Positions 16,428 to 62,216 of a stretch of 64,000 bases of DNA are shown here, one piece after another (the stretch's first letter is position 1; every line of letters begins with the position of its first letter). The position numbers and the translations under genes are program-made. The notes beneath the pieces were generated by a model. The model ran no database searches. It was given only the letters and a program-made list of their open reading frames with translations, and had not been told where the DNA came from. The stretch comes from Candidatus Microsaccharimonas sossegonensis (GTDB taxonomy: Bacteria > Patescibacteriota > Saccharimonadia > Saccharimonadales > Saccharimonadaceae): NCBI GenBank assembly GCA_004100325.1, contig SCKX01000001.1:479453-543452 (forward strand). Reading direction: 5' to 3'.

Positions 16428-19070
16428 TTACAATGCATCATTACTGGAAGCTGCAGCTTTTTTCTTCCGTGTCCTTGTTCTTTTCCGTTTTGGCTTTGCA
16501 GATTCTTTTTCTTGCTCTTCTGAGATGACAACCGAAGCAGATCCAAAGGCTGGTGTCACCACTTGCTGGACGGCTGCTGCGCCAGCGTCGAGTGGCCAGT
16601 TCCTTGCCTGGGCTTGTGATTGGGGCTGCGGTTTTGATGCTTGGACTGCTTGTTGCTGCACGGCAATGGCTTCGGCTATTGCCGCTTCTACCTCTGCTCG
16701 AGGGCGGCTGTAGTTGCGCCGGGTATTTTCAATGATCAGGGCGGTGTTATCAATCTGTTCGGGTGGCAGCGTCAATGTAGTAGCACTAAAGGCAGGTGCC
16801 TTCTCTCCCCCGATGACCATGTTGATGATGAAGTGTCTATTATGCATCTGAAGTAAATCTTGGGCTTCGAATTGTGGTTCAAATTGTTTTGCGAGAATTG
16901 GTGAGTCATCTGCCGAGACACGGAACGAAATCATTGTCCCGACGTTTCCAAAAACAGCGTCACGTACGGTGTCAGTCATTTGAGAGATATATTGATTAGC
17001 AACAGTCAGATTGAGGCCATATTTACGTGCTTCTGACAATATCGTTGCAAACGAATCGGTCGCAAAGTTTTGAAACTCGTCGACGTACAAATAGAATGGA
17101 CGGCGGTCTTCGATGTTCGGGATGTCGCTGCGACTCATGGCGGCAAGCTGCACCTTTGTTACAAGGAAGGCACCGAGGATAGCGGCATTGTCTTCGCCGA
17201 TCAAACCTTTGGAAAGGTTGACGATCAAAATCTTGCCTTGGTCCATGATTTCACGGATATTAAAGGTTGATTTCGGTTGACCGATGATGTTACGAATGAT
17301 TGGGTTAGCGGTGAAAGCCCCCACCTTGTTGAGCACCGGCGCGATGGCTTCGGACTGGAACTTATCGTTCCAGCTGGCAAACTCGACGTTCCAGAACTGC
17401 AGGACGACGGTGTCAGTGGAGTATTCCAAAGTCTCTTTTCGAAACTTTTTGTCGGTCAGCATGCGAGTAATATCAAGCATGGTTGTTGATGGACGGTCAA
17501 GTAGCGCCAAAATGGTGTACCGCAGGATGTATTCTAGTCGTGGACCCCACGATTCACCGAACATACGCTTTAAAACACCAATCACCTCCGATGAGATATT
17601 CGTCTTTTGACTTGGGTTGATGACCTCCAGGGGGTTAAACCCTAATGGATAGGCGGTATCGGCAGGGTTAAAGTACACCACGTCGTGCATACGACTGCCC
17701 GGAATAAAGCGCATGTTATCGACGGCAAAGTCGCCGTGCGGGTCGATGATAGCGTAGCCATGCCCGTGGAAGATGTCTGAGAGGGCAAACAGCTCTAGCG
17801 TCCCCGACTTCCCTGCTCCGGTCTGTCCGATAATATACACATGACGTGAGCGATCCGATCGCAGCATACCAAACTGGTGGTTGATTCCGCGGAAGTTTGT
17901 CAGACCAAAAGCACTAATATTTTCATCAATGGCAGTGTTGCCAGTGATTACCGGAAGCTTTGCTGGCGGCTCGGCGGTTTTAGATGATGCCCAGACGATG
18001 TTTGGCGTTTCGACATTGGTGTGCGGCAAGTGGAAGACACTGGCGAGCTCTTCAATATTCAAGATAAAACCACTTCTACCGAACGATCGCTGACGGTATT
18101 TGGAAAGATCTTCGGTTTTAAAGCTGGCGCTGGAAACTTTAAAGCCATTTAAGTTCGTGCTGTTGTACTGCTTGAAAGTGCCTACGATCGCCTGCATGCG
18201 CTGACGGGCAGTGACTTGGTTATCTCCGAGGTAGGCAAGGCGAATTTTTACCTGGTAGCCTAGCTTTGTCGCTTTCTTCTCTGCTTCGGCGATACGTGTT
18301 TTGTTACGATCAGATAATTCTTTTGGGGCAGCAGCTTTGGCTGAATCTTCAGGTGGTTTCCAAAGGGCTTCAAAAATGCCGGCGAAAAACGATACTCCCC
18401 CACCACTGCCACCAAAAATGCTCGTTTTTCCGGATTTTACGCCTTTAATCCAGGCTTCGGATTGTTTGTGCCATTCATCGGCGATCGGTCTAACCAGGAT
18501 TTGAATCCAGATTTCTTCACCGGTTTGTTCGAGCTTGGCAAGCGTGCCGGTAATACCCGCTAAAGGGTCGACCTCAAAGTTTTGAAAAGTTTTGATCGGA
18601 AGGACTTCGGGGTCGGTCAGGACAATTTCAGAAGTATAAATTACAGAATGTTCCCTTTCATGGGTAACATAATCTTCATCGGCTTCACGAATCTGAACTG
18701 TTGGATACTGGGAATAAATCTGGCTTTCAACAAAGCTTCGCAGCGGCTTTGGTACCCAAGTATAAAAACGAATCTGCCCACTTACCGAGGCAATCTCAAA
18801 GCTAAGGTGCTCCTGAATACCGTTGTTCATCTTCCGCTCTGTTTTGTCGCGAAGAATACCGTGAAGACTAGCGAAGAGTTGTTCGGCAGCCAGTTCTTGC
18901 TTATCATTTGTTTTTGGAATCTCAAGAATTAAAAGATCACTTTCAACGTTGGGAGCAATTTGTTCCGCCTTGCGGTAGTTGCGCCAGGTGAGAAATCCGA
19001 GAATTAAAACAATAGGTATCCATATGTACCACTGGAGAAAAAAATTAAGAATGTCGCCGATAATACTCAT
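16428..19070 (-). CDS. TraG/VirD4-like DNA-binding ATPase with DUF87-type core
   Basis: An 880-residue membrane-anchored P-loop ATPase related to conjugative coupling proteins and HerA/VirB4. One N-terminal helix (about 15-30), then a roughly 350-residue N-terminal domain of unknown role, Walker A GQTGAGKS (415-422) followed by IDPHGDFAVDN, Walker B FYLYVDEFQNF, and a sensor-like TVANQYISQM block. The C-terminal 120 residues are low complexity (Gln/Ala, then Lys/Arg-rich KPKRKRTRTRKKKAAAS). Such proteins pump DNA or protein substrates; no relaxase or other conjugation gene is next to it, so a chromosomal role such as DNA uptake or secretion is plausible. Monocistronic on the minus strand. Confidence 0.8.
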   Translation of the reverse strand: MSIIGDILNFFLQWYIWIPIVLILGFLTWRNYRKAEQIAPNVESDLLILEIPKTNDKQELAAEQLFASLHGILRDKTERKMNNGIQEHLSFEIASVSGQIRFYTWVPKPLRSFVESQIYSQYPTVQIREADEDYVTHEREHSVIYTSEIVLTDPEVLPIKTFQNFEVDPLAGITGTLAKLEQTGEEIWIQILVRPIADEWHKQSEAWIKGVKSGKTSIFGGSGGGVSFFAGIFEALWKPPEDSAKAAAPKELSDRNKTRIAEAEKKATKLGYQVKIRLAYLGDNQVTARQRMQAIVGTFKQYNSTNLNGFKVSSASFKTEDLSKYRQRSFGRSGFILNIEELASVFHLPHTNVETPNIVWASSKTAEPPAKLPVITGNTAIDENISAFGLTNFRGINHQFGMLRSDRSRHVYIIGQTGAGKSGTLELFALSDIFHGHGYAIIDPHGDFAVDNMRFIPGSRMHDVVYFNPADTAYPLGFNPLEVINPSQKTNISSEVIGVLKRMFGESWGPRLEYILRYTILALLDRPSTTMLDITRMLTDKKFRKETLEYSTDTVVLQFWNVEFASWNDKFQSEAIAPVLNKVGAFTANPIIRNIIGQPKSTFNIREIMDQGKILIVNLSKGLIGEDNAAILGAFLVTKVQLAAMSRSDIPNIEDRRPFYLYVDEFQNFATDSFATILSEARKYGLNLTVANQYISQMTDTVRDAVFGNVGTMISFRVSADDSPILAKQFEPQFEAQDLLQMHNRHFIINMVIGGEKAPAFSATTLTLPPEQIDNTALIIENTRRNYSRPRAEVEAAIAEAIAVQQQAVQASKPQPQSQAQARNWPLDAGAAAVQQVVTPAFGSASVVISEEQEKESAKPKRKRTRTRKKKAAASSNDAL

Positions 19071-19140
19071 AATAGTGTCTATGTTATTCTCTCACCTCTG
19101 ATACATAATGTCTACTGTCTTGAACCATTGGTTCCTAAGA

Positions 19141-19404
19141 ACGGCTGTTGGATGAAGCTTTTTAAGACAACGTGGCTATTGTAAGAATCTTGGTATAGCC
19201 AGGAATCTTACAATAGCCAGCGACATAGTAATTGTCTTAAAAAGCTTCATCCACCATCCATTCGACAACCGTAATTGTTTCGCCGAAGATTTCATTCATG
19301 CATTTCATGACACTTATTATGTCGCTGGACAAAGAGGGATTCCTGGCTATACCAAGATTCACTCTTTGTCCACGGTGTCCTGAAATGCATGAAAGAAATC
19401 TTCG
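19141..19404. repeat. Nested palindromic element with complementary loops
   Basis: Hairpin 1: GATGAAGCTTTTTAAGACAA (19151-19170) pairs perfectly with 19232-19251; inside, 19173-19186 pairs perfectly with 19206-19219. Hairpin 2: 19284-19313 pairs with 19375-19404 (10 + 11 + 5 bp, small mismatches); inside, GGACAAAGAG (19327-19336) pairs with 19362-19371. The apical loop regions are complementary to each other: 19185-19207 is the exact reverse complement of 19338-19360 (23 nt). A further segment, 19217-19231, complements 19314-19328 (14 of 15). It fills the space between two minus-strand genes, starting 10 nt after a stop codon. No ORF inside. Confidence 0.92.
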
Positions 19405-19413
19405 TTGGGACGA

Positions 19414-20466
19414 CTATTGAACGTCGAGAGTGTAGGTAGCCTTGGCAACTCGCTTAAACTGCGGCTTGCTTTGAAGGTTCAAAAGAATAGTCGTTTCCTT
19501 AACTTGGCGGCTTTTTAATACTCGTTTGACGATTTCGTCGCGGTGCAGCGGTTCGCTTGAGTCGCGTAGCACCTGCGCGATAATGTCTGAGACGGTCCCC
19601 TTGCTGTAGCCCCAGTTGTCGAGGGCGTAGATACCACGACCGATGAGCACAAACCGCTTGTCTTTAATCAGTTCGTTGTGAATCGCCTGTGTCGTGACGT
19701 CTTTTCGTTTAAAACTTGAGTCTTTAATACTTTTCGCAATTTCTGAAAAGTGTAGGGGTTTTTTGTTCTCTGATAAAATGACGTAAATTTTATCGCGAAT
19801 ATTCTTCGGGTTAACGGTTGGCCATTTTATGAGCCCCCAACTATCACGAAGGTGCGCCAGTTGTTTACTTATGCTTGCAAGGGCAGAAACATGGCTAGGA
19901 TGCTCGTAATGAAGTGCATCGTGAAGCTGATCAAGCGACAGAGGTTCTTTATGTTCTTTGATCGTCTTCACAATCTCGTCTATTTCAGCGCGCATCTTCT
20001 TTTCGTCACCGTATTCAGCGATACCAACAGCACTATGGTAGTTGTCGTTTTCGTCAATCACGGTCAAGCCAGGGGCAAGCGTCGCAATAAAAGCGACGTG
20101 GGCACGTTCCTGTTGGTTGGTAATGCGACCATATAGTTTGTCGGCAAGATCCTGCGTCCTAGCAACACGACCCACTTCGCTTAGTGTACGAATAAAAGTT
20201 TTTTCAAGGGTGGTGACGGCTTCGGTCTTGCCATCTTCGGCAGCGATCTTCAGGCGGATAAGAATCGCCTTCTCTAGTTGACGAACACGTTCACGAGTAA
20301 TGCCAAGCAGTTCTCCGATTTGTTCAAGAGTTTCTCGGCGGTCATACAACCCAAAACGACGGGTAATAATTTCACGTTCACGCTCCTGCTCAATAAGTGA
20401 TAGAACATTTGTAACGCCTGATTTTAGGTCGGTCGTCGGCTGTTTTTGGTCGTTTGCGTCGCTCAT
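19414..20466 (-). CDS. Sigma-70 region 4 / HARE-HTH regulator
   Basis: A 350-residue putative transcription factor. Residues about 22-75 (SLIEQEREREIITRRFGLYDRRETLEQIGELLGITRERVRQLEKAI) match sigma-70 region 4, the -35-contacting helix-turn-helix. The rest contains repeated winged-helix segments of the HARE-HTH/RpoE-delta type (EPLSLDQLHDALHYEHPSHVS, KPLHFSEIAKSIKDSS, EPLHRDEIVKRVLKSRQV). There is no region 2, so it cannot act as a complete sigma factor; it may bind core polymerase or promoters as an accessory factor. A consensus promoter with an inverted repeat lies upstream, and AGGAG precedes the ATG by 13 nt. Confidence 0.8.
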   Translation of the reverse strand: MSDANDQKQPTTDLKSGVTNVLSLIEQEREREIITRRFGLYDRRETLEQIGELLGITRERVRQLEKAILIRLKIAAEDGKTEAVTTLEKTFIRTLSEVGRVARTQDLADKLYGRITNQQERAHVAFIATLAPGLTVIDENDNYHSAVGIAEYGDEKKMRAEIDEIVKTIKEHKEPLSLDQLHDALHYEHPSHVSALASISKQLAHLRDSWGLIKWPTVNPKNIRDKIYVILSENKKPLHFSEIAKSIKDSSFKRKDVTTQAIHNELIKDKRFVLIGRGIYALDNWGYSKGTVSDIIAQVLRDSSEPLHRDEIVKRVLKSRQVKETTILLNLQSKPQFKRVAKATYTLDVQ

Positions 20467-62096: not shown

Positions 62097-62209
62097 GCGT
62101 CACGGTTTTGTTTCCTTGAGGAGGCCACTCTATGTGTAACTTCGTTAGCCCATGGCGTTCGGCTCGCTCTGATGGGGACATCCTCCTCTAGTAAGCAAAG
62201 CGGTGACGC
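62097..62209. repeat. Long imperfect hairpin between atpC and dus
   Basis: Nucleotides 62097-62124 pair with 62182-62209 in register over 28 positions with three mismatches (104/202, 114/192, 117/189). The 57-nt loop holds a second hairpin, CCCAT (62149-62153) with ATGGG (62172-62176). No U-tract follows on either strand, so a simple terminator is unlikely. It may protect 3' ends of both convergent messages. Confidence 0.85.
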
Positions 62210-62216
62210 TCTCCTG

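Follow-up and report, generated by a model that had tools for sequence, protein, structure and literature searches.

The window (the whole stretch of DNA analysed, 64,000 nucleotides) contains a palindromic element, here called F1, which sits in the intergenic gap between a gene for a sigma-like protein and an ATPase gene. The element consists of two back-to-back hairpins, HP1 and HP2. The features of the locus are as follows.

16428..19070, minus strand: flanking gene, VirD4/TraD/HerA-like ATPase
19086..19114, minus strand: promoter-like TAGACA-17-GAGAAT, ahead of the ATPase gene
19141-19404 region: F1 element, 265 bases, HP1 and HP2 back to back
19149..19253, plus strand: HP1, hairpin unit 1, with outer stem, CG clamp, inner stem and conserved terminal hairpin
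19149-19170 with 19232-19253: HP1 outer stem, 22 bp, perfect
19173..19219, plus strand: HP1 inner stem and terminal part, 19173-19186 paired with 19206-19219 over 14 bp in the predicted fold
19185..19207, plus strand: HP1 terminal core GAATCTTGGTATAGCCAGGAATC, the same in HP2, self-folding (TCTTGGT/GCCAGGA, ATA loop)
19223..19231, plus strand: HP1 asymmetric bulge ACATAGTAA, 9 nt, one-sided, 8 of 9 identical in HP2
19264..19283, no strand: HP1-HP2 spacer of about 20 bp, the approximate centre of the inverted pair
19284..19404, minus strand: HP2, hairpin unit 2, which repeats HP1 in inverted orientation and has another stem sequence
19284-19313 with 19375-19404: HP2 outer stem, 30 bp with 2 mismatches
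19314..19322, minus strand: HP2 asymmetric bulge, 9 nt, ACATAATAA on the minus strand
19338..19360, minus strand: HP2 terminal core, GAATCTTGGTATAGCCAGGAATC when read on the minus strand
19414..20466, minus strand: flanking gene, protein with sigma-70 region 4 and HARE-HTH, its stop codon about 10 bp from HP2

An earlier note on this DNA gave coordinates for F1 that were all correct on re-checking. The loop segments 19185-19207 and 19338-19360 are exact reverse complements, as it had claimed, with the same 23-mer on the plus strand of one and the minus strand of the other, and the side segments 19217-19231 and 19314-19328 are complementary at 14 of 15 positions. The outer stem of HP1 is perfect and, at 22 bp, slightly longer than the 20 bp described; that of HP2 measures 30 bp with 2 mismatches. 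Folded as RNA, F1 has a predicted energy of -144.5 kcal/mol compared with a shuffle mean of -65.2 (z = -16.4), and none of 200 shuffled sequences matched its stability. The opposite strand is also strongly paired (-142.9 kcal/mol). No intrinsic terminator was found at F1.

One structured unit is present twice, as HP1 and, in inverted orientation, as HP2, a relationship which the earlier note overlooked. The two hairpins align without gaps over 103 columns and share the 23-nt terminal core without a difference. The two hairpins differ at one of 38 core positions and at 32 of 65 positions elsewhere (p = 2e-7, a value that is only descriptive because the core boundaries were set after the alignment had been viewed). 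Among 44 base pairs 28 are unchanged, 13 carry two-sided changes, none carries a one-sided change and three are broken, each in one hairpin only. Sliding the partner by one to three columns as a control reduced the two-sided pairs from 13 to between one and three. There are no G.U intermediates between HP1 and HP2 among the 44 pairs.

Any inverted pair whose core has not changed will have complementary loops, so the complementarity of the two 23-nt loops is not evidence for a switch. The kissing loop or switch that had been proposed from this complementarity was rejected on both energy and accessibility. The HP1 x HP2 duplex is predicted at -104.8 kcal/mol against -144.5 kcal/mol for the two local hairpins, a deficit of about 40 kcal/mol for the long-range fold. 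In the predicted structure most of the 23-mer is already paired and only 5 of its nucleotides are free.

The orthologous gap was compared in 14 relatives of the same genus that have both genes in place and in four more members of the family; a further member of the genus (G016) has no match for the sigma-like gene. F1 is absent from all 14 of the genus gaps, and none of the compared genus and family gaps holds it. The gap is 343 bp here and 41-152 bp in most relatives; the closest relative, with a 93% identical protein, has a gap of 54 bp without F1. Longer gaps in G010 (917 bp), G009 (1062 bp) and G021 (708 bp) contain other sequence, and the insert of about 280 bp has no match within the gaps of the relatives. 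The GAGAAT end of the ATPase promoter (CAGAGGTGAGAGAATA) is conserved in the genus and retained here, whereas the usual TTGCC on the -35 side has been replaced in this genome, which implies that insertion of F1 altered the promoter region. No target-site duplication was recognised at F1, the gap sequences of the relatives being too diverged to place the exact junction. We infer that this lineage alone acquired F1, by an insertion directly behind the sigma-like gene.

The BLASTN and covariance-model searches for which the earlier note had called found no homologue of F1 beyond its own locus. No second copy was found in the rest of the genome, and in 60 relatives nothing was found by BLASTN or by pattern with three mismatches. 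A covariance model of HP1 and HP2, built from two sequences, matched only its own locus in 295 genomes of the class; the exact patterns miss diverged relatives. The loose core pattern CGTGGN{20,50}CCAGCGACATA gave three other matches in the 295 genomes, about the number expected by chance and without the core. Exact and loose patterns gave only chance matches in contigs of GTDB species genomes and in IMG/VR. Pattern matches in Paenibacillus were set aside, as by eye they resemble T-box leader sequences. BLASTN with the whole of F1 found nothing in phage and plasmid records, and the best matches in Rfam 15 were chance matches far below the gathering score. Within everything searched the F1 family occupies a single locus, and with only one copy known no movement of F1 has ever been observed.

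F1 consists of a conserved structured core within a near-perfect outer stem whose sequence is locus-specific, and the same design is found in two dispersed families, F2 and F4. The 796-kb contig (C1) was scanned for inverted repeats with a score of at least 17 and a spacer of up to 160 nt. This identified 11 inverted repeats, compared with none in five genomes simulated at the same dinucleotide composition; three of the 11 belong to F1, four to F2 and one to F3. F3 is a lone large hairpin (C1:466349-466523) with a 28-bp perfect outer stem, a nested inner stem and a 119-nt interior. The four strong F2 copies (L086-L094; C1:314700-314813, 338904-339017, 456260-456373 and 585950-586062) have a common core (..CTCCGGGTCTCTCTCTGTTTCAGTACCGGGATAGACTCGG..) and surrounding stems that are unrelated in sequence. 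The last two flank the window, and no strong F2 lies inside it. F4 has a Y-shaped core and was first met in the relatives G006 and G014 and then in this genome (G000), which has at least two copies. One of these (C1:422170-422283, around C1:422250) is a single copy without cargo at the map-ftsA place. The other lies inside the window at about 62099-62211 (C1:541551-541663, around C1:541628), where a free outer stem surrounds the Y-shaped core; a minus-strand gene which by eye resembles one for a tRNA-dihydrouridine synthase ends 8 bp away. The names map, ftsA, rnjA, ftsK and dnaX used here were read from translations and not assigned by database.

Covariance models find F4 in 21 of 295 genomes of the class and, among 101 relatives, F2-like hairpins in 22; about 27 matches to the two families were inspected, and those with the lowest scores may simply be long hairpins of a generic kind. 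In weaker F2 matches the inner asymmetric motif GGCTTCRCKCCG...CTCGGGYTGCAGA is kept, and the tip and outer stem differ. Neither F2 nor F4 patterns occur in IMG/VR, and no Rfam match for the repeat families was found among the loci tested. Alignments reveal no core shared by F1 with F2 or F4; F1 is a family of its own.

F2 and F4 copies often lie within about 30 bp of a gene end, occur in both orientations relative to their neighbours (for F2, six the same and four opposite) and are also found inside open reading frames on either strand. An F2 copy lies within the open frame of dnaX in both G000 and G014; F2 in dnaX, read in frame, gives LEPES.PVLKQR.TRSEAV. This pattern of position and orientation suits mobile repeats better than a cis-regulatory RNA, a comparison which says nothing direct about F1. 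The rnjA-ftsK gap is a hot spot among 14 genomes (L208-L221), with F4 in G006 and G014, F2 in G000 and G014 and other inserts in some genomes; it measures 64-145 bp where there is no insert. The rnjA-ftsK terminator of G000 (GACTCTCATTAGGGGGAGTC) has GACTCTCATT in common with the F4 stem of G006 and may be a remnant of F4. At map-ftsA, inverted F4 pairs enclose changing genes: a 129-codon membrane-type open reading frame and a NUDIX gene in G006 (C1:114551-115690) and a membrane protein of about 200 codons in G014 (C7:20233-21243). It is possible that F4 pairs around varying genes behave as gene cassettes, and one might guess that F1 is an empty version of such an inverted pair.

The changes that stems undergo can be followed in F2, as all four F2 loci of this genome are also occupied in G014 and one is occupied in G006. 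In three same-orientation G000-G014 pairs the stems, although palindromic in each copy, are 0.62-0.73 identical, against a mean of 0.68 for random 30-mers, and the flanks and cores are 71-87% and 78-91% identical respectively. Between G000 and the closer G006 there are three substitutions in a 21-bp stem, and all three are two-sided. At L086 in G000 the 5' arm is now exactly complementary to the 3' arm, even at the motif that is usually asymmetric, and this arm conversion has left a near-perfect palindrome. At L090 in G014 the core is inverted relative to the same flanking tRNA-like and coding sequences. The tRNA-like sequence is by eye a tRNA-Arg. In yeast, template switching between inverted repeats yields both arm homogenisation and spacer inversion (PMC8604942). 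As the F2 arm conversion and core inversion are products of this kind, perfect pairing is likely to be partly mutational in origin and not selected. An alternative to in-place rewriting of the stems is independent re-insertion at the four F2 sites, which would also account for the flipped core of L090.

Mismatches in the stems carry a strand signal. In 51 outer stems of F2 and F4 the displayed strand has 59 A.C, 9 G.T and 94 other mismatches against 1113 Watson-Crick pairs, counts that are not independent since a recurrent mismatch is common to F4 copies and near relatives are included, both of which inflate the A.C figure. For F2 alone there are 18 A.C and 4 G.T mismatches (p = 0.004). F1, oriented as HP1 on the plus and HP2 on the minus strand, has three A.C and no G.T, too few to use. 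An A.C on one strand is a G.U on the other, and the complementary strand therefore looks as if it had been selected as RNA or had undergone C-to-T change while single-stranded. The excess suggests strand-specific selection and not only correction of DNA arms, and counts against the mobile-repeat reading set out below. Conserved wobble pairs in the F2 and F4 cores point to the strand opposite to that of the stem signal.

The explanation that we favour, with a probability of about 0.6, is that F1 is a non-autonomous mobile palindromic repeat in the form of an inverted twin, with a core that is kept and stems that are rewritten by arm-to-arm template switching. The conserved core would comprise the terminal hairpin CTTGGTATAGCCAGG and the one-sided bulge ACATARTAA, set in GACA-CGTGG...CCAGCGACATARTAA-TGTC, and is presumably retained because a mobility enzyme or another protein reads the folded DNA or RNA. 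Both stems, outer and inner, would be free in sequence yet paired, since a change in one arm would be copied into the other by polymerase template switching within the hairpin and unpaired variants would be lost. F1 would have arrived by insertion behind the sigma-like gene. Among the readings offered by the earlier note a foldback or MITE-like element is the best, with the insertion absent from relatives and families of the same design dispersed; against it, no parent insertion sequence was found, as the ends of F1 have no second copy in this genome or in 60 relatives. Repeated template switching, which that note had also considered, is probably part of how the stems evolve, as the F2 events indicate.

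Two candidate movers were discarded. A search of this genome for Y1 (RAYT) transposases (PF01797, E 0.01) gave no match, in a search whose control worked. A reverse transcriptase gene of 353 codons is present (C1:630749-631360, L233), and by length could belong to a diversity-generating retroelement; reverse transcriptases are sporadic in the genus, found in four of 19 genomes searched, this one included, with three matches in one genome. The reverse transcriptase is not needed in G006, which lacks it and yet carries both F2 and F4.

Another explanation is that F1 is a local structured RNA or regulatory element, whose hairpins act in the transcript between the sigma-like and ATPase genes in mRNA stability, processing or promoter insulation and whose stems have undergone ordinary compensatory evolution. 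The strong fold of both strands, the two-sided changes between HP1 and HP2 and the strand-biased wobble of the F2 and F4 stems are consistent with this, and a non-coding RNA, as the earlier note had suggested, is possible. We consider it unlikely, as F1 is missing from every relative that keeps both genes, has no Rfam match and no terminator-like site, and HP1 and HP2 lie on opposite strands so that only one can be in sense. The lack of G.U intermediates also argues against it, as do the F2 and F4 copies, which lie inside open reading frames and have no fixed orientation to neighbouring genes.

F1 could instead be a purely local product of template switching, a foldback and inverted duplication at the gap that was never mobile and has no function. 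This would agree with the lack of any copy elsewhere, with the template-switch traces in F2 and with the documented occurrence of arm homogenisation and spacer inversion (PMC8604942). It is nevertheless quite unlikely, because an unconstrained core should also drift, whereas the core is the same in both halves and half of the other positions differ. In addition, the inserted sequence matches nothing in the gaps of relatives.

The attC sites of integrons are imperfect hairpins with one-sided unpaired bases, with conserved outer boxes and a variable tip. F1 likewise has imperfect hairpins with one-sided unpaired bases, which could be read as folded single strands; its tip is conserved and its outer stem differs between HP1 and HP2, in contrast to attC, the boxes being judged by eye. 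That F1 serves a recombinase which binds its single strands, either as an attC-like site of folded DNA or as the paired ends of a cargo-less cassette, is very improbable: the asymmetric bulge of each hairpin and the inverted F4 pairs around changing map-ftsA genes in G006 and G014, with a single cargo-less copy here, fit such a site, but no attC boxes were recognised by eye in F1, no recombinase is evident beside it, F1 and F4 have no common sequence and the cargo pattern occurs at one locus in two genomes only.

As a mobile palindromic repeat F1 can be compared with several known systems. Families of Rickettsia palindromic elements (RPE; Ogata et al. 2000), as PMC10969869 describes them, are marked by a conserved repeat that encodes a conserved peptide. 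They are similar to the repeats found here in being palindromic repeats of about 100-150 bp, in several families of a reduced genome, located in gaps and in frame within genes (F2 in dnaX). They differ, on the same description (PMC10969869), in that here the core alone is fixed and the stem differs at each locus; moreover F1 has only one copy, an inverted twin located within a gap, and the several in-gene copies are a property of F2 and not of F1. REPINs have conserved ends, a variable middle and many copies, depend on a RAYT (Y1) transposase and show compensatory stem changes (PMC3116915). F1 resembles them as an inverted pair of conserved foldable units, with one difference in 38 core positions, but keeps its middle, varies its ends, occupies one locus and has no Y1 transposase that we could find. 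Like MITEs (PMC10969869) it is a short non-coding insert with an inverted-repeat structure that carries no gene, and relatives lack it at the orthologous site. Unlike them it has no recognisable conserved terminal inverted repeat or target-site duplication, as far as the diverged gap sequences of the relatives allow these to be read, and no parent insertion sequence. The arm homogenisation and spacer inversion in F2 are those of quasipalindrome correction by template switching, which was described as mutating short repeats within yeast genes (PMC8604942), whereas here it apparently belongs to the regular behaviour of whole repeat families whose core is constrained. F1 works like an RPE or a REPIN and falls under neither definition.

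More broadly, this lineage may hold several mobile families that consist of a folded core only. The core alone would be inherited by sequence, the long outer stem would be made or remade and rewritten at each site, and movement would proceed via a folded single strand of RNA or DNA; F1 would represent one of these elements in inverted-twin form, perhaps as an empty pair of the F4 type. We put this forward tentatively and regard it as doubtful.

Conserved ends and stems are what usually identifies a repeat family in bacteria. In families of the F1, F2 and F4 type these are the free part, and ordinary sequence searches therefore miss them. F1 probably represents a kind of small mobile repeat that is spread through the relatives of this bacterium. 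Arm conversions and core inversions can be counted across the F2 and F4 copies, whose orthologous palindromes form a natural series, and such counts bear on an old question, the persistence of palindromes. The copies include in-frame palindromes in the essential gene dnaX of a reduced lineage, and possibly inverted hairpin pairs around changing genes.
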